Shown here: positions 12,474-23,418 of the stretch, piece by piece | Numbering within the stretch: the stretch's first letter is position 1 | Layout of the letters: every line of letters begins with the position of its first letter | Source of the DNA: Alkalispirochaeta americana | GTDB lineage: Bacteria; Spirochaetota; Spirochaetia; DSM-27196; Alkalispirochaetaceae | Reading direction: 5' to 3' | Length of the DNA: 64,000 bases | NCBI RefSeq assembly: GCF_900156105.1 | Contig: NZ_FTMS01000005.1 | Coordinates: forward strand, 62,001-126,000 | Program-made: the position numbers and the translations under genes | Notes under the pieces: generated by a model | What the model saw: only the letters and a program-made list of their open reading frames with translations | Database searches by the model: none | Told to the model about the DNA's origin: nothing

Positions 12474-14468
12474 ATGGTCTACAAGAAGAACCAAACCGAT
12501 GAAAAAGCGACTGATGAAAAACCCGGAACCGCTCCTGGGGGATGGCGGAGAATGAAACCCCTCAGGATAAAAACGTTGAAGCTGCAAACAAAACTCAGCG
12601 CACTTCTCTTTCTGTTAACGTCCCTGATTATAACGATTTTTTCTGTAACAGGCTTCATCTCTTCCAGAACGCTTTCAAGCCAGATGGTTTTTCAGGGACT
12701 CCGCCAGGACCTCTCTTCACTCCAACAGAGCGTAGAAAACTGGGCTGAAAAAAAACTGGTCCTCATAGATAGCGCAGGACAAATCTTTGAAACCCCCGGC
12801 ATGTATAAGACTCTGCGACAGTTCGGTCCGGGCCATACAAACCACCATCCCTTTCTTCAATCCTCAGGTTACGACGATGCCGTGGGCACACTCTATTTGG
12901 CATTTCACGATGGCCTTCACACCACCGGGAGCGCCTGGAACATCCCCGATGACTACGATCCACGGGAACGGGGTTGGTACCAAAGCGCGGTGCACCAGGA
13001 AGGACCAGGTTTTTCCGATTCCTACGTCGATGCTCACACAGGAAATCTTGTCATAACTGCCGCGCGCCCCCTTTTCGATCAGGAGGGAGACATCTTTGGT
13101 GTGCTGGCAACAGACATATCCCTGGAGCAGGTGACAGAAGCTATCTCGGCGTACTGCCTTGGTGACGGAGGATATGCCTTTCTTCTGAATGAAGAAGGAA
13201 ATCTGCTGGCTCACCCCGATGAAAACTTGGTTGGAACTCCCCTCCAGGAGAATGACGGTTACAAGGATGTGGCCAGAATGCTCCTCGGCCATCCCGATCA
13301 GGAAGACCCGGAAGAAGTCTTCTCTGCTTCAATCAACGGTTCTCCCCACATCATTCGCTCCGTGTCATTAGCTGATTTCGGATGGCGCCTGGCCATGGCC
13401 GTTCCCCGGGAAACCCTCCAGGCCCCCTTGAGAAGGCTTAACGGTCATTTCATTTTTCTGGGAATTATCTCGCTGGCTACGGTGCTTTTTGCCTCTTTCA
13501 TGGTCGGCCTTCGCCTGACCAAACCAATAAAGGAACTTTCAAGCTATCTCGACGTTCTTGCCGGGGGCAGACTTGATTGTGCCGTCCCATCGTGGACAGA
13601 AAAACGGGAAGACGAAATAGGAGTCCTGGCCTCAAGCACCCGCACGCTCCAGCATCGCCTCTCCGGCGTGGTCTCGTCGATTCGGGAAATCTCACATCGT
13701 GTGAACAGGGATAGCGGAAGCCTTCAAAACATCGGTCAAGAGGTATCGAACGGTGCCGGGAACACCGCTCACGTGGCCCAGCAGCTTTCGGAGGGGGCTT
13801 CACAACAAGCAGCTTCGGTGGAGGAGGTCTCCTCGGCCATGGAAGAGATGGCGGCCAACATACGGCAAAGTGCCGATAACGCCGAGGCCACCGAAAAAAT
13901 CGCCCTCGAGTCATCCCAAAAGGCACAGCAAAGCGGCCAGGCCGCCGCAGAAGCCGTGGAAGCCATGCGGCAAATCGCCGACAAAATCGGCATCATCGAG
14001 GATATCGCCCGGGAAACCAACATGCTCTCCCTGAACGCCGCCATTGAAGCAGCCCGGGCAGGAGAACAAGGCAAGGGCTTTGCCGTTGTCGCCGCGCAGG
14101 TGCGAAAACTCGCAGAAAACTCTGCCAGCGCCGCACGAGAAATCGGAACTCTCAGCGCCCGGTCCATGGAAACTGTCCAGAACGCGGGGGAACTTCTGGA
14201 CGAAACCGTCCCGGGGATCAGGAAAACTGCTGATTTGGTCCAGGAGATCACCGCTTCGGCCAGGGAGATGAGCGCTGGGGCACGACAGGTAAGCGAAGCC
14301 ATGGTCCAGCTCGATACGATGGTGCAGCACACCTCTTCAGCCTCCGAGGAAGTGGCTGCCACAAGCGAGCAACAATCGGTACAAACAGGCCAGCTTTCTC
14401 TGGAAACAGGAAAACTCCGGAATCTTGCCCGGGAGTTGGAGCAACTGGTGGACTTTTTCTCGACCTAG
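12474..14468 (+). CDS. Methyl-accepting chemotaxis protein (dCache, HAMP)
   Basis: Transmembrane chemoreceptor, 664 aa. The ATG at 12474 is preceded by a purine-rich GGGAAGGA; a second in-frame ATG at 12552 would remove 26 charged residues and cannot be excluded. A membrane helix (about 41-60) is followed by a double-Cache ligand-binding domain (about 65-310), a second helix ([20 protein letters not shown]), a HAMP linker and the cytoplasmic signalling domain. The Cache domain has RGWY, then 15 residues on a Tyr with Tyr-x-Asp (SYVD), then an Asp in ATDIS, which fits the published amino-acid-binding dCache_1AA pattern. The signalling hairpin tip has the conserved [20 protein letters not shown]. 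Bases 13806-14329 are identical to part of the next MCP. No CheR-binding pentapeptide is seen. Confidence 0.94.
13806..14329 (+). repeat. 524-bp direct repeat, copy 1 (MCP signalling domain)
   Basis: By base-by-base reading this block is identical to 17242-17765 (offset 3,436 bp). Flanking sequence on both sides diverges at once. It encodes the methylation helices and hairpin tip in the same frame in both genes, and the third MCP of the window encodes similar protein with clearly different DNA, so the identity indicates recent gene conversion or partial duplication. Confidence 0.95.
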
Positions 14469-15969: not shown

Positions 15970-17946
15970 ATGAACATCTTGAGACAATCTACTCAACAAA
16001 GCAGACGCGGTTTCAGAACGCTCCAAACGTCGATGATTATCGTTTTCGGGGCATCTACTGCTCTTATCCTTCTTATGACAGCGGTCATTCTGCTGCACCA
16101 TGTCCGGGCTACGCTGACAGACGAGACGGAAGAATCTCTCCTGGAGCTGGCTCAGACAGCAGGAGTACTTATGAACGACCGTTTTCAGGACATGATCACA
16201 TCCCTGGATTCTGTCTCCCGCCAGGATATTCTCACCGATGGAACACCCTGGGCAGAGATTTCCGAAAACCTGCAGGACCAGGCGGAAGCCCTGGGATACG
16301 ATACCTTCGGACTGGTTGACCTGGAAGGAATAAACCGGCGAACCCTGGACCAGGCCGTTACGGACGTATCCGATCGCGATTACTACCGGCTGGCCCGCAG
16401 GGGCCAACCGAACGTGTCAGAGGTTCTTATCAGTCGGGCCACGGGGGAACCAATTATGATCGTGGCCGTACCGGTGATGCGCCAGGGAGAAATCCAGAGT
16501 GTACTCATCGGCGTGCGCGATACAAGAGTTTTTGAAACCCTGGTGAACACCGTGGGGATCGGGGAGCGAGGGTACTCCTACGTTATTAACGATGAAGGAA
16601 CAATTGTGGGACACAGGGATCACAAGCTGGTCCAGGAACGGTGGAACGCAATGGATGAAGCGCGCTCGAACCCTGACTATAGGGAAATGGCCCGTGTACT
16701 GGGCCATGCTGCCCAGAGGGAGTCGGGAACGGGCCGGTACTTTTATCAGGGAGAGGAGCGCCTCATGGGATACGCTCCCATTGGAGAGACAGGATTTTCC
16801 GTTCTTGTAGGATCCTACTGGCACGATATCATCGCGCCCCTGCGGTTGTTGCAATTTATCTTTGCCGGTGTGGCAATAGCGGGTCTGCTCCTGGGAACAG
16901 CCACTATCGCCGTTGTGAGCAGGACAATTACGAAACCAATCACAGATCTTGTCCCGGTGGTAGAAAAAATTGCACGCCTCGATCTCTCTGTGCGGGACCT
17001 CGCGGCTCACGAGATTTCGAGAATGGAATCGGTTCGATTGCGCCGTGATGAGATCGGTGAAATGGCCCGAAGCATAGCAAAAATGGAAGAAAGCCTGCGC
17101 GATTCCGTCACCAGAGTTCAGGCCGTGGGTATCGCTGTGACAGGAAAAACCGAAGAGCTTGCCGATATCGAGCGGCTGGTATCTCAGGGAGCTGGCCAGA
17201 TGACAACTGTGGCAGAAGAACTTTCCCAGGGATCTTCCGAGCAAGCAGCTTCGGTGGAGGAGGTCTCCTCGGCCATGGAAGAGATGGCGGCCAACATACG
17301 GCAAAGTGCCGATAACGCCGAGGCCACCGAAAAAATCGCCCTCGAGTCATCCCAAAAGGCACAGCAAAGCGGCCAGGCCGCCGCAGAAGCCGTGGAAGCC
17401 ATGCGGCAAATCGCCGACAAAATCGGCATCATCGAGGATATCGCCCGGGAAACCAACATGCTCTCCCTGAACGCCGCCATTGAAGCAGCCCGGGCAGGAG
17501 AACAAGGCAAGGGCTTTGCCGTTGTCGCCGCGCAGGTGCGAAAACTCGCAGAAAACTCTGCCAGCGCCGCACGAGAAATCGGAACTCTCAGCGCCCGGTC
17601 CATGGAAACTGTCCAGAACGCGGGGGAACTTCTGGACGAAACCGTCCCGGGGATCAGGAAAACTGCTGATTTGGTCCAGGAGATCACCGCTTCGGCCAGG
17701 GAGATGAGCGCTGGGGCACGACAGGTAAGCGAAGCCATGGTCCAGCTCGATACGATGGTGCAGCAAAACGCTGCGGCCGCCGAAGAGGTGGCTAGTACCA
17801 GCGAAGACCAGTCCGGCCAGACCGAGAACCTCTCACTTTCGACCCGGGAGCTCCGCAGTCAGGCTCAATCTCTGGCCGAGGTTGTCTCCCGCTTCACTCT
17901 TTCCGCGGAGCTGCACAGTCAATCTAAGGACGACCACGAGGCATGA
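15970..17946 (+). CDS. Methyl-accepting chemotaxis protein (Cache, HAMP)
   Basis: Transmembrane chemoreceptor, 658 aa, with AAGGAG 11 bases before the ATG. First membrane helix at about 18-40, then an extracellular Cache-type sensor (about 45-280) with [12 protein letters not shown] and [11 protein letters not shown], a pattern different from the amino-acid motif of the upstream MCP, so a different ligand is likely. The second helix (about 295-318) leads into HAMP and the signalling domain. Residues 425-598 are encoded by the DNA block that is identical to the upstream MCP; after it the sequence switches abruptly to [16 protein letters not shown]. The C-terminus (KDDHEA) shows no docking pentapeptide. 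A 12-bp hairpin follows at 18004. Confidence 0.94.
17242..17765 (+). repeat. 524-bp direct repeat, copy 2 (MCP signalling domain)
   Basis: Identical to 13806-14329 over its whole length. Both copies are in the same reading frame of their genes, so recombination between them would delete 3,436 bp including the GGDEF-EAL gene and leave one intact chimeric MCP gene. Confidence 0.95.
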
Positions 17947-18155: not shown

Positions 18156-18713
18156 TCATTCCTCTTGCTCGGCCGAGGCATTTAACCGGCAGATCTCCTG
18201 CACGCTGAAAACTTTATCGATATCAAGGATGATAATAAACTCATCATTCCTCTTTCCCATACCCTGAATGAAGGAATTTTCCAGAACGGTTCCGAACTTT
18301 GGCGCAGGTTCAATCGAATCTGCCCCAAGATCAATTACCTCCTGAACAGAGTCGGTCAGAGCCCCCAGAACTGCGGCCTCTCCCTTCACGGTGACTTCCA
18401 TTACTATTATGGCCGTATCGATGGTTTCCTCGGTTCGATCCATCCCGAACTTTTGTTTCAGATCGATCACGGGAACAACCGTTCCCCGCAAGTTGATTAT
18501 TCCCCGAACGTATTCAAGGGTCTTGGGGACCTTCACGATGCGAGGTAATTCCAGGACTTCCCGAACCCGGTCGACCTCCACACCGTATTGCTCTCCTGCC
18601 ACGGTAAAGGTCAATAGTTGCACGTCCTGCCTCACAGTTCCTTCCAGAGACACGTTTCTCAAATCCTTCCCGTCCGAGGGGTTCTCGACGGGAGTTTCTC
18701 TCATTTGCTGCAC
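18156..18713 (-). CDS. cheW: Chemotaxis coupling protein CheW
   Basis: Scaffold protein that couples chemoreceptors to the CheA kinase (185 aa, typical CheW length plus a short N-terminal extension). The CheW fold is clear: QLLTFTVAGEQYGVEVDRVREV, the loop VKVPKTLEYVRGIINLRG, VVPVIDLKQKFG, and the closing segment GMGKRNDEFIIILDIDKVFS. It is the last gene of the minus-strand MCP-STAS-cheA-cheW set and its start overlaps the end of cheA by 13 bp. A second in-frame ATG three codons in (18704) would shorten the overlap and is equally possible. Confidence 0.94.
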   Translation of the reverse strand: MQQMRETPVENPSDGKDLRNVSLEGTVRQDVQLLTFTVAGEQYGVEVDRVREVLELPRIVKVPKTLEYVRGIINLRGTVVPVIDLKQKFGMDRTEETIDTAIIVMEVTVKGEAAVLGALTDSVQEVIDLGADSIEPAPKFGTVLENSFIQGMGKRNDEFIIILDIDKVFSVQEICRLNASAEQEE

Positions 18714-20812
18714 AGGAGCTCCTCCTTTGTGTATTCCATGGAAAAGTTATTTTTTGATATCTCTTCAATAATTTCTCCATCTACCGATAGAGATTCAAGA
18801 AGTCTGGGAATATCAAGAATGAGAGAGATATCCCCATCTCCCAGAATCGTCGAGCTGCTGATCTCCGCAACTCTTCCCAGAAGACCCTTCAGGGGTTTGA
18901 TCACCACCTGGTTCTGGCCGATGATCTCGTCCACTACGATTCCTCCTCTGTGAAACCCTGAATCGACCACAACTACATGGGCCAGCTCGGGATGACTCCC
19001 CCCGATTCCCAAATGCCCCCTTAAATCAACCAAGGGCAGAGGCTTGCCCTGGTGATGCAGGATCCGCTGCGTTGAAGAGAGCAGTTGCCGGGCCTGCGGC
19101 AGGATAAAGCATTCCTTCACATCGTTCAGGTGGATCGAGAAATGGTGATCCCCCAGGCGGACCTGCAAGCTGTCGATAATCGCCAGAGTAAGGGGAATTC
19201 GAATGGTGAAGGTCGTTCCCTGGCCCTCGCGAAAATCAAGAAAGAGATGACCCGCCAGTTTTTCCACTTCGGCAAGAACGGCGTCGGTGCCTACGCCCCG
19301 ACCGGAAACGGAGGTTACCCGGGAAGCCGTTGAGAATCCTGGCCGGGAGAGCAGGCCCAGCACTTCATCATGCAATAGCGAACTGTCAGGAGAAAGAAGC
19401 CCCTGGGCGACGGCTTTCTGGCGAACCTTCTCTATGTCGATTCCCGCCCCATCGTCGGCAACGTCTATCTCGACCTGGGAACCAACATATCGGGCTCGCA
19501 AGGAGATCTTTCCCCGCGAGGATTTTCCCCGTTTCATGCGGTCCTGAGGCGACTCAATGCCATGATCGATGCTGTTGCGGATCATGTGAACCAGACAAGA
19601 TTTCAGGGAATCCATCACCGTTTTGTCCAGCTCGGTTTCCCCGCCTTCAATCTCCAGATCCACCTCTTTGCCCATCTCCACCGATAGATCTCTCACAATC
19701 CTCCGGAAACCGACAAACATATTCTGCAACGGAACCAGGCGCATTCCCATGATCCGCTCACGCAGATCGCTGACAAGAAAATCAAGCTCTTCGCTGATCT
19801 CATCAAGAACAGGATCCTTCACCTCCCCCACGTGCAACGACAGGCGCTCTTTCAGGGTAACCAGTTCTCCCACAAGATCAACGGCAGCATTCACTTTTTG
19901 ATCCGATACAAGAAGCGCTGCGGCCTGAGACGTCTGATCGCGAGTTTTTTTCTGCTTCTGCAGAAATTTCTGCTCTTCCAGGGCTGTCTCCAGCTCTTCT
20001 TCATCGACAATGCCTTGCATTACTGCCAGCTCACCCAGCTTTTTGTTCTGTTTCTGTGCCTCCAGAAGCTCCTGGATCTGCTCGTCCGTAATGTGACACC
20101 GCCTCTGGAGAATCTCTCCCAACAGGGGAGTTTTATCTCCGTCCCAATCGAAGGGGATTGTCTCCACCGAGAGAGTGCTCCCGGATTCCACAAAAAGGAA
20201 AACCTCCCGTACCGATTCTTCGCTTTTCGGCGTTACCAGAAGAATATCAAAATCCAGGTAACACAGGGTGGGATCGAAGGAATCCCAGGAGGGCAACCGA
20301 ACGTCCTGAGCGCTGATCTGCACAGGACCCAACGATGCCAGTTCGTGGAAGAGCCCCCTGAGACGCGTTCCGTTCTGAAGTATTCCGGGGGCGGGATGAA
20401 AGCGCAGGTGAAAGACCTGTTTCCCGGAACAAGGAGCACTGTCTTCCCTAGTCATACCACAGGCTGCTTCTGTTACTTCCTGCCACCCCTCCACATGGGG
20501 CGGCAGATCGGGATCTTCCAGCATTGCCGTGATTCTATCCAATCCCGCAAGGGACTCCTCGATCACTCCCCTGGTAACGGTCATCTTTCCTGCCCGAATA
20601 CTATCAAAGGCGTTTTCCATGGCATGGGCCTGGGCCGAAATGTTCTCAAAACCGAACATGGCTCCGGACCCTTTCAGAGTATGCATGTTTCGAAAGATCC
20701 TCTGGAGAAGATCTCCGTCCCGAGGAGCCTCCTCCAGGGAGACCAAGTCCTGCTCCAGGATTTGAAGAAGAGAACGGGATTCCTGAAAAAACAAGTCCGG
20801 CGAAAAATCCAT
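18701..20812 (-). CDS. cheA: Chemotaxis histidine kinase CheA
   Basis: Cytoplasmic kinase that reads receptor state and autophosphorylates, 703 aa. The ATG at 20812 is chosen because it shares one base with the stop of the upstream STAS gene (TGATG) and opens directly into the HPt domain; the frame is open for 33 more residues upstream but these overlap STAS. Order: HPt with HTLKGSG (phospho-His44), a ferredoxin-like domain (about 133-222, FHLRFHPAPGI), a linker (about 230-283) made of two LGExxxxxxxIxxExxxxxLExQ units resembling the N-terminal domain of GspE/MshE ATPases, a dimerisation helix pair (VNAAVDLVGELVTLKERL), the ATPase domain with N-box VHMIRNSIDHGIE and G-box DDGAGI, and a C-terminal CheW-like domain. 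It lacks an obvious classic P2. No cheY, cheR or cheB is in the window. Confidence 0.94.
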   Translation of the reverse strand: MDFSPDLFFQESRSLLQILEQDLVSLEEAPRDGDLLQRIFRNMHTLKGSGAMFGFENISAQAHAMENAFDSIRAGKMTVTRGVIEESLAGLDRITAMLEDPDLPPHVEGWQEVTEAACGMTREDSAPCSGKQVFHLRFHPAPGILQNGTRLRGLFHELASLGPVQISAQDVRLPSWDSFDPTLCYLDFDILLVTPKSEESVREVFLFVESGSTLSVETIPFDWDGDKTPLLGEILQRRCHITDEQIQELLEAQKQNKKLGELAVMQGIVDEEELETALEEQKFLQKQKKTRDQTSQAAALLVSDQKVNAAVDLVGELVTLKERLSLHVGEVKDPVLDEISEELDFLVSDLRERIMGMRLVPLQNMFVGFRRIVRDLSVEMGKEVDLEIEGGETELDKTVMDSLKSCLVHMIRNSIDHGIESPQDRMKRGKSSRGKISLRARYVGSQVEIDVADDGAGIDIEKVRQKAVAQGLLSPDSSLLHDEVLGLLSRPGFSTASRVTSVSGRGVGTDAVLAEVEKLAGHLFLDFREGQGTTFTIRIPLTLAIIDSLQVRLGDHHFSIHLNDVKECFILPQARQLLSSTQRILHHQGKPLPLVDLRGHLGIGGSHPELAHVVVVDSGFHRGGIVVDEIIGQNQVVIKPLKGLLGRVAEISSSTILGDGDISLILDIPRLLESLSVDGEIIEEISKNNFSMEYTKEELLCSK

Positions 20813-21198
20813 CAGGCTCCACCTTCCTGGCTCATCCCGGCCAGGGGGGCCCTCTCCAACCGGGAAAATTCCTCTTCGGAGCAAGCAAGGTCGGGGAAAT
20901 AATGGTGGCAACCAAGATCAATGATGGCCTCTTTCACCGCCGAAGACATGAGCGACATGAAATCAACGCGGATTCCCCTGGAGAATGCCTCCCGATCGAG
21001 GATAACAAGAATCTGCACAAAAGGAAGTCCTGTACTTGTCACGCCTCGGGTGTCAACCTGAATCGTCTGTTCGCGTTCCGCCCTGTGAAGGGTCTCATGA
21101 AACTCCGCAAAAATTCGTCCGGCGTCGCGGAGGGAAATATCTCCAGCGAAGGCAATTCGAAAGCCCCGGGGGGTCGCTTCAACAGATATATCTGCCAT
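20812..21198 (-). CDS. STAS-domain protein
   Basis: Stand-alone STAS domain, 128 aa, of the type found in anti-sigma-factor antagonists and in regulatory partners of kinases. The fold is visible as ISVEATPRGFRIAFAGDISL, the beta strand and loop QTIQVDTRGVTSTGLPFVQI (the loop position normally holding the phosphorylated Ser carries T-S-T), and a C-terminal helix. It lies between an MCP and cheA, with only three bases between the MCP stop and its ATG, GAGGAG inside the MCP end as ribosome site, and a TGATG overlap with cheA. The context says it works in this chemosensory pathway; the partner is unknown. Confidence 0.85.
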   Translation of the reverse strand: MADISVEATPRGFRIAFAGDISLRDAGRIFAEFHETLHRAEREQTIQVDTRGVTSTGLPFVQILVILDREAFSRGIRVDFMSLMSSAVKEAIIDLGCHHYFPDLACSEEEFSRLERAPLAGMSQEGGA

Positions 21199-21201
21199 CT
21201 T

Positions 21202-23418
21202 TTACATCTCCTCAAAACTGTAGTCCAACTCATCCTGACTCAGAAGCGCCTGCTGCTCCAGGACCGATATGCCCCGCTCCTCCCTTGTATGCGAAGAGCG
21301 CCCTGGCAGGGCGGGTTTCCTGTCGGGAGAAACCTTCCGGGAGGGTGATTCTTCGGGCTTCCTGGCTTCTTCGGGCTTCCTGGCTTCTTCGGGCTTCCTG
21401 AATTCCTCAGGTTCTGACAGGGCCTTTGGTTCCTCGACCTTCCTGTCCTTCCCATGCTCACCAGATTCTCCTGAGTCTCCTCCGCGAGAACGGCCCAGAA
21501 GGGTGAAATACTCGGCAATCCCTTCAAGCTTTTGCGCCTGCTCAAGGAGAGCCTGGGAGGTTTTTGCCAGGGCATCGGTCTGCCCCGACTGCTCCTCACT
21601 GGTGGCAGCAACCTCTTCGGAAGCCGATGCTGTTTGCTGGACTACCTGGTCCAACTGCAGCACCGCCTGACTCACCTGGTCTGCGCCAGCACTCATTTCT
21701 CTGGTGGATGATGTTATCTCCCGAACCAAATTAGCTGTTTTCTCTATCTCCGGAACGGTTTCATCTAGCAGGTTCCCGGCTTCCTCGGCGATGCGCACCG
21801 ATTCAGCGCTGATTTGGCGTATCTCCCTGGCTGCGTCACCGGAGTTCTCCGCCAGTTTTCTCACTTGGGCAGCCACAACGGCAAAGCCCTTTCCCTGCTC
21901 TCCGGCCCGGGCCGCCTCAATGGCGGCGTTCAGGGAGAGCATATTTGTCTCCCGGGCAATATCTTCGATAATGTTGATCTTTTCGGCGATCGTCTTCATG
22001 GCAACTACGGTATCTGACACAGCAACACCACTACGCTGGGCCTTTTCCGCCGAAAGGACCGCTATCTGCTGAGTTGTCTCGGCATTGTCTGCGCTTTGCC
22101 GAATATTTGCGGCCATCTGCTCCATGGACGCCGAAACCTCCTCCACCGAGGCGGCCTGCTCCGAAGCCCCCTGGGATAGCTGCTGCGCCACGGCCGCCAT
22201 CTGGGAGGTTCCTGAAGAAACATCGCTGCTTATTTTTGCCAGCCCCCGGCTACTGGCAGTTATTGCCTGGGCTCCGTCTTGAATGTTCCCCACAATCTGG
22301 TTCATCTTTGCGCTTATAGCTCCCTGAGCCCGAGCGAGATCTCCCCACTCATCGCGTTTTCGAAGGTAGTACTGCTCGTACTCGGAGGAAAGATCCCGAG
22401 TCAGGTCCCCCCTCGCATATTCCTGGGCCTGATCAACAAAATCTTTCAGAAGCAATGCCGTACTTCGCGCCACAAGGAAAGCAGTAGCCACAACGGCCAG
22501 GACTGCCAGGACGACCAGCCCCACAATAACCCAGGAGATCCGCACCAGAGGAGCGGCCAGGTCAGAATAGGGCAACAGGTAAGCCACAGACCAGTTGGGA
22601 GACCCGGGAACGGGTGCATAGATTGCGTGATATCGCTCCCCTTCAGGGTTTCGATAATCGCCCCTGCCAGAAAGGCCCTGCAGGATTTCCCGGGCTATAG
22701 AGTCCAACCCCTGGTATCCGTCGGCTTGGGCGATGTTCAGACTAAGTACCAGGGCAGACTGTGCATCACCGATGATCATTCCCGTGCCGTCTACAACGGA
22801 CCCCCGGCCGTGACGGCCAAAGCGCATGGCCCGGGTAAGATCACCCAGAGCTTCCAGGGTAACAGAGGCTCCAAGAATACCCGTGACCTCGCCCTGGCTA
22901 TCCCGCAGGGCCTGAGCGACCACGGCTATTGGATTTCCCGTGGCCACACTCCTCATTCCCTGGCTCATAGCGTAGTCCCGACCCTCCTGGTAGATAGCCC
23001 GGACGTAATCCCGGTGAGAGAGATTTCCCGTGAGTCCGTCGCTGGTCATAAAATCGCCCGACGGGTCCACAAAAAAGAGATTTTCGAACTCTTCAGGAAT
23101 CGTCTCGTGTCTTCGAAGAACTTCCTGAATAATCCGGTGGGGTTCTCCTGTCTGAAACTGTTCTCCCCGGGAAATCTGGCGGACCGTGTTCAGATGCCCC
23201 TCCAGCCATCGTCCTGCCTCGGAACTGCGGGCATCCACAATTTCCCGGGAGAGTTCCTCGACGGTGCCATTCTGGATCTGCAGGATTTGCCAGAGGAGCA
23301 CGGCTCCCACAAAAAAGAGAACGCCCGCCGAGACACCTCCAAAGAGGAGGGTCATCTCTGTTCTGATTGTCTTGAAGCCTCGCCACCGATAGCGCCATTT
23401 TTTTTCGCCTGTTCCCAC
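21202..23418 (-). CDS. Methyl-accepting chemotaxis protein with tethered C-terminal peptide
   Basis: First gene of the minus-strand chemosensory operon; 738 aa, GTG start with GGGGAGG seven bases upstream. Membrane helix at about 25-47, Cache-type extracellular sensor to about residue 290, second helix ([20 protein letters not shown]), HAMP, then the signalling domain with [20 protein letters not shown]. Its signalling DNA is not identical to the two plus-strand MCPs. After the coiled coil comes a charged, proline-containing tail with hexapeptide repeats ([12 protein letters not shown]), then basic stretches, ending in [14 protein letters not shown]. The tail layout resembles receptor tethers that carry an adaptation-enzyme docking peptide, but the terminal peptide resembles the CheY-binding N-terminus of FliM (LSQDEIDALL) rather than NWETF. 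Confidence 0.92.
21352..21405. repeat. Three 18-bp tandem units in the MCP tail
   Basis: Unit TTCGGGCTTCCTGGCTTC twice exactly, third copy differing at three bases. On the minus strand each unit encodes a hexapeptide of the K-P-E-E-A-R type in the flexible tail, so copy number changes would keep the frame and only alter linker length. Confidence 0.85.

Follow-up and report, generated by a model that had tools for sequence, protein, structure and literature searches.

Chemoreceptors of the Tar/Tsr type carry the pentapeptide NWETF at the extreme C-terminus, on a linker of about 35 residues (PMC7390727); E. coli Tar ends in ...LRIAEQDPNWETF. The published criterion for a pentapeptide that binds CheR and CheB is a C-terminal xZxxZ, in which Z is F, W or Y (PMC7390727), and a linker of at least 10 residues after the signalling domain has been used as a further criterion in a study that saw no evident resemblance between the linkers of a single proteobacterium (PMC7698151). 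Recruitment of phosphorylated CheB by NWETF has been demonstrated for E. coli (PMC8609364). A variant, xF/YxxF/Y, is found in the class-34H receptors of Geobacter, in which the pentapeptide EFEKF is accompanied by a cognate 'group B' CheR, and six CheR residues that contact the peptide have been named (PMC2577667). The length of the CheR beta-loop, long or short, has been linked to the use of pentapeptide receptors (PMC3062574). A different C-terminal likeness is considered below, that to the CheY-binding motif of FliM, given as LSQxEIDxLL (PMC5677366) with a CheY-contacting core of EIDALL (PMC9126983).

The chemoreceptor of interest is encoded on the minus strand at 21202-23418 of the window, that is, of the whole 64,000-nucleotide stretch of DNA that was analysed. 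Its open reading frame of 738 residues comprises a dCache_1 sensor (residues 50-280), an MCP signalling domain (MCPsignal, residues 452-610; both by Pfam), a long linker, and a docking-type tail at the C-terminus. Linker and tail together extend for about 128 residues past the end of the MCPsignal match, far longer than in Tar/Tsr and above the 10-residue criterion. The hexapeptide repeats that the earlier note had seen in the linker are present as an 18-bp tandem unit in 2.9 copies with a 100% match (21349-21400, minus strand), which encodes about three KPEEAR hexapeptides, so that the array is a short one. The tail that follows contains, all on the minus strand, the residues GISV (21262-21273), whose glycine lies 23 residues from the C-terminus, the FliM-like stretch LSQDELD (21223-21243), and the terminal pentapeptide SFEEM (21205-21219).

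The receptor belongs to a cluster on the minus strand, with a STAS-like protein directly downstream (20812-21198; STAS_2 at 24.4 bits and E 3.4e-5, below the curated cut-off of 29.2), followed by CheA (18701-20911; Hpt, HATPase_c, and CheW domains) and CheW (18156-18713; Pfam). The listed TTG start of CheA overlaps the STAS gene, and the true start may be a later ATG (MDFSPD...). The order MCP, STAS-like, CheA, CheW is the same in the congener G006 (L138), as judged by gene size and sequence rather than by a Pfam scan. Residues 264-314 of CheA (19970-20122, minus strand), located between Hpt and the kinase core, match the NCBIfam model NF053729.1, c-di-GMP_motif, related to MshE (44.3 bits, cut-off 38). 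Combinations of MshEN with CheA have been mentioned (PMC5013675); binding of c-di-GMP by this CheA is uncertain because the RLG of the motif is degenerate here (LLG, KLG). Within the signalling domain, two neighbouring MCP genes on the plus strand (12474-14468 and 15970-17946) are identical over 524 bp (13806-14329 and 17242-17765), which suggests recent duplication or gene conversion.

The last five residues of the receptor are a near match to the NWETF-type pentapeptide, a resemblance that the earlier note had overlooked, and occupy the position in which related receptors bear the pentapeptide that docks CheR and CheB. Based on the sequence comparisons described here, the tail is most probably a tether of the NWETF kind for CheR, and probably also for phosphorylated CheB, with Met taking the place of the final aromatic residue. 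In common with NWETF of Tar/Tsr, SFEEM lies at the extreme C-terminus after a linker, with an aromatic residue in position 2 and acidic residues around it, but it has Phe for Trp in position 2 and Met in position 5, and the M leaves it outside xZxxZ, which the F in position 2 would fit. With EFEKF of the Geobacter class 34H it shares F in position 2, E in position 3, and an acidic context; it differs in its final Met, and its own CheR is found in another cluster about 45 kb away.

We compared the tail with those of other receptors by assembling 148 distinct complete MCP C-termini from the organism's own receptors, from relatives, and from named genomes. Of its own 27 MCPs above the Pfam cut-off, 24 entered the set, with L011 and L014 left out because they gave no hairpin match and L019 because it exceeded the length limit. 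Among the 148 C-termini, 86 end in xZxxZ, seven (including SFEEM) end in xZxx[MLI], and 55 in neither, compared to a frequency for xZxxZ of 0.0018 after shuffling of the last 40 residues; the set is biased in that loci were found by their likeness to this receptor and many tails are interrelated, and LDYSFEEM was one of the six seed peptides for the search of named genomes. A profile of 88 pentapeptide tails, from which this receptor and its congener orthologue were left out, has D at -10 in 52, D at -7 in 81, F at -4 in 81, E at -3 in 75, and F or Y at -1 in 83; at -8, L is more frequent than any other residue (17/88). The receptor tail keeps D-10, L-8, D-7, F-4, and E-3, as well as an element of the G[IV]xL type described below. 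The FliM-like 'DELD..F' is therefore largely ordinary tail consensus, and only L-13, S-12, Q-11, and E-9 of the FliM-like stretch are additional to it. A DNA pattern for the terminal sequence Dx[DE]FEx[FY] followed by a stop gave 48 matches in 30 of 61 related genomes and none in the reversed control, although some of the matches are due to chance, as with that of G014, which lies in an open stretch of 24 residues with no visible MCP frame (L200). Tails of Rhizobiales of the form KGFALDMSMGGPDANDADFRESA (L106, L110, L120, L124, L126, and L130) share this module, with Ala standing where the last aromatic residue would be, and the docking motif may thus be wider than xZxxZ.

The tails have a second conserved element. 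Of the 93 pentapeptide tails, counting strict (86) and near (7) forms together, 61 have G[IVFLMY]x[LIVMF] 19-24 residues from the C-terminus, compared to four tails in each of the flanking six-residue bins and to none of 39 receptors that lack a pentapeptide. Its commonest form is G-I/V-x-L-D/N-L/M. The element is present at the same distance in 13 of 16 degenerate ends of the DF..SA type, mostly from Rhizobiales, and it occurs in tails from Spirochaetota, Desulfobacterota, Nitrospirota, Alphaproteobacteria, Bacteroidota, and others, some of these taxon labels being uncertain; L070, L073, L078, and L086 are examples of position-locked G[IV]xL[DN][LM]. Among 33 further loci picked solely by the terminal pattern, it was located at 19-24 in 15 and at 17-26 in 18, in a set where one locus (L206) has the tail of another (L044) over again and several loci have relatives among the tails compared first. 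The receptor's own glycine, at 23, conforms to this spacing, and the fourth residue of its element is V, a minority choice. The element was not seen in E. coli Tar. A strict DNA pattern combining both elements matched none of 60 genomes spread across the phylum, the organism's own included, but it required a residue context that this receptor's tail lacks and so bears on the module neither way. The element goes unmentioned in the accessible portions of the pentapeptide literature (PMC7390727, PMC7698151, PMC2577667, PMC8609364, and PMC12654446), the search covering the subscription journals in part.

A tether of the NWETF kind calls attention to the CheR complement of the genome, which encodes three CheR-type proteins (L134, L135, and L136). 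L135 (C5:130760-131350), which has CheB as a neighbour and a STAS-CheA pair upstream, aligns without gaps to Salmonella CheR (1bc5) through the beta-loop, while L134 has a gap of four residues there. L136 is a CheW-CheR-like fusion whose CheR-like domain has a short beta-loop; fusions of this sort have been described for the F2 systems of spirochaetes (PMC7666581). The genome thus contains a CheR with the long beta-loop associated with pentapeptide receptors (PMC3062574), and its contact residues are partly kept: of the six positions (PMC2577667), L135 retains R187 and R197 and differs at four (Q182K, G188S, G190D, and G194D). L135 is part of a second cluster with the order STAS-CheA-CheR(long loop)-CheB-hybrid kinase-receiver (L137, 6949-14179, contig C5), about 1-8 kb past the end of the window, and the CheR serving this receptor is likely to be encoded there. 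Of 13 genomes, 10 yielded a long-loop CheR (its own, G001-G007, G012, and G050), and none was found in G008, where three CheR were inspected, nor in G014 or G053; beta-loops were inspected in 30 of the CheR matches listed and in L173, not in every CheR of each genome. In G014 no MCP tail of the form Dx[DE]FEx[FY] was found either, and G053 has no CheR of any kind. The correspondence is imperfect in two genomes. In G008 a tail-bearing MCP (DDEFEDF, L202) lies about 5 kb from a short-loop CheR (L165), a counter-example to the loop-length rule, and G007 has a long-loop CheR but no match of the terminal pattern. These two mismatches, together with the four changed CheR contacts and the departure of the terminal Met from xZxxZ, count against a CheR tether.

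The pairing in G008 could also mean that the tail docks a partner other than free CheR, namely phosphorylated CheB alone, CheD, or the CheR-like domain of the F2 scaffold L136. The genome encodes all three types of protein, and one of its own receptors, L009, together with L212, keeps GI[AT]LA near the end without a pentapeptide, such that the G[IV]xL element can be retained independently. We nevertheless consider such a partner improbable, given the short beta-loop of the CheR-like domain of L136 and a terminal consensus that is that of receptors paired with a pentapeptide-binding CheR (PMC2577667).

Conservation among relatives differs between the parts of the tail. The orthologue in the congener G006 (L032) is 77% identical, and its tail reads LNQDELDLTFEEM. 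Over the terminal 25 residues, 21 are identical between the two congeners, with 7 synonymous and 4 non-synonymous codon differences, while the linker of the congener is built on another repeat (PDQ..Q units), indicating that the linker sequence is not conserved. The shared end also rules out a frame or assembly artefact at the end of the receptor. In the FliM-like stretch the congener keeps L-N-Q-D-E-L-D. The syntenic homologue in G012 (L033; 49%, beside CheA) ends in GITLAQRPLLNDDDADFEEF, and the FliM-like residues are lost from its corresponding stretch, LLNDDDADFEEF. They are likewise lost from the organism's own paralogue L003, which ends in GITLPQDTGKGLPDDIDLEFEDM (DIDLEFEDM) and has GLPDDIDLEFEDM in the corresponding stretch, and the stretch is absent from the paralogue L001. 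The G006 counterpart of L003 (L210) ends in GITLPRDTRGGSADDIDLEFEDM (DIDLEFEDM), so that two receptor lines of the genus have retained Met as the last residue. Judged by these endings, the family as a whole retains the GIxL element, the acidic residues, and the terminal F-E-[ED]-[FM] but not the FliM-like letters. Conservation in orthologues, on which the earlier note had staked its reading, is accordingly divided, being found in the G006 congener and lost in the G012 homologue. The wider search that it had proposed did not extend the distribution: the pattern LxQ[DE]E[I/L/M][DE]xxF[DE] gave 3 matches in 297 Spirochaetia genomes compared to 5 in the reversed control, the 3 being this receptor, its G006 orthologue, and one match in G144.

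The likeness of the tail to the CheY-P-binding peptide of FliM, from which the earlier note had started, was borne out by the comparison it had suggested with the genome's own proteins. FliM begins with MNEVLSQDEIDQLL and FliY with MSDGSLSQDEIDALL, and the tail is identical to each at 6 of 10 residues, with BLOSUM62 scores of 29 and 28, respectively. Searched genome-wide as a DNA pattern, LxxQDE[I/L]D gave three matches (FliM, FliY, and this receptor), compared to none for the reversed control. When scored against LSQDEIDALL, the receptor tail ranks first and that of the congener second among the 148 receptor C-termini. The score of 28 was reached by 1 of 14,800 composition shuffles of the 148 tails, and a score of at least 28 by 3.3e-6 of draws from the position-specific make-up of the 88 related tails, FliM having been chosen post hoc as the comparison in both cases. 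These results indicate that the FliM likeness is greater than would be expected of a tail drawn at random from the family, and a score rarer than the family model predicts is a further point against a CheR tether.

The C-terminal end of E. coli CheZ, ...ASQDQVDDLLDSLGF, binds CheY and is a precedent for a C-terminal motif of this type. It shares with the receptor tail its C-terminal position and S-Q-D-x-[VL]-D, but only 4 of 10 residues are identical and the tail has no LL, on which grounds a CheZ-like peptide was rejected.

The earlier note had inferred that the tail recruits CheY-P, or a CheC/CheX-like phosphatase target, to the array. On this reading the tail would dock CheY-P in the manner of the N-terminus of FliM or FliY or of the C-terminus of CheZ, and would bring CheY-P, or a phosphatase together with CheY, to the receptors. 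The idea of a flexible tether that ends in a docking peptide is supported; the proposed partner is not, and is probably wrong. In favour of CheY-P are the 6/10 identity to both FliM and FliY through the shared L-S-Q-D-E-[IL]-D, the rarity of the score (3e-6 of family-profile samples), the 21/25 identity of the congeners' ends, and the congener's S-to-N change, which FliM tolerates in Caulobacter, where LNQDEID is part of a working FliM peptide, ILNQDEIDSLLG (PMC5677366). Against it, the double leucine of LSQxEIDxLL and EIDALL is missing, with SF in place of LL in the receptor (ELDYSF) and TF in the congener (ELDLTF). The motif is C-terminal in the receptor and N-terminal in FliM and FliY, it overlaps the pentapeptide module, and D, L, D, and F of the stretch belong to the tail consensus, with SFEEM aligning with the CheR/CheB pentapeptide. 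Nor was a receptor of this type found in the literature searched. The missing LL, the overlap with the consensus, and the patchy conservation led us to demote docking of CheY-P from the main reading to a rival that we regard as hardly probable. If true, it would add a new line of feedback to a pathway familiar from textbooks, but on balance the evidence speaks against it. The FliM likeness is most simply explained as a lineage-specific filling-in of variable positions of the module, and looks mostly like a coincidence built on a docking tail.

The two functions might also coexist, the CheY-P-binding stretch L[SN]QDELD overlapping the CheR/CheB pentapeptide SFEEM within one 23-residue module. 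CheY-P or CheB-P would then compete with CheR, and kinase output would feed back directly on adaptation; we think such a bifunctional tail very doubtful. Better supported is the proposal that the NWETF-like tails of this receptor class may be bipartite docking modules of about 23 residues, with G[IV]xL[DN][LM] as the second conserved element. That the tail is instead a decayed pentapeptide, which has lost its terminal aromatic residue and binds no enzyme, is consistent with Met in position 5 and with Ser before Phe in place of the usual E or D, but is very unlikely, because the final Met is also kept in the L003/L210 pair and the terminal 25 residues are conserved while the linker differs.

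The data are best accommodated by a CheR-docking tail with the following mode of action. A long, presumably disordered linker would carry the terminal module of about 23 residues, and SFEEM would bind the beta-subdomain of the pentapeptide-type CheR L135, the phosphorylated form of the CheB encoded beside L135 probably being bound as well. By concentrating the methylation enzymes locally, the tether would allow the receptor and its neighbours in the array to adapt. In this lineage Met may stand for the usual terminal F or Y.

The tail of this receptor is thus a candidate variant, one that would act like a CheR-docking pentapeptide yet fails the strict rule at the last residue. If it is a CheR tether, surveys based on xZxxZ may miss real members of the class, given that two of the three such tails among the 24 of the organism's receptors that were compared end in Met. 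The position-locked G[IV]xL found in several phyla further suggests a docking unit of more than five residues, for which CheR, CheB, or some other protein would offer a second contact.
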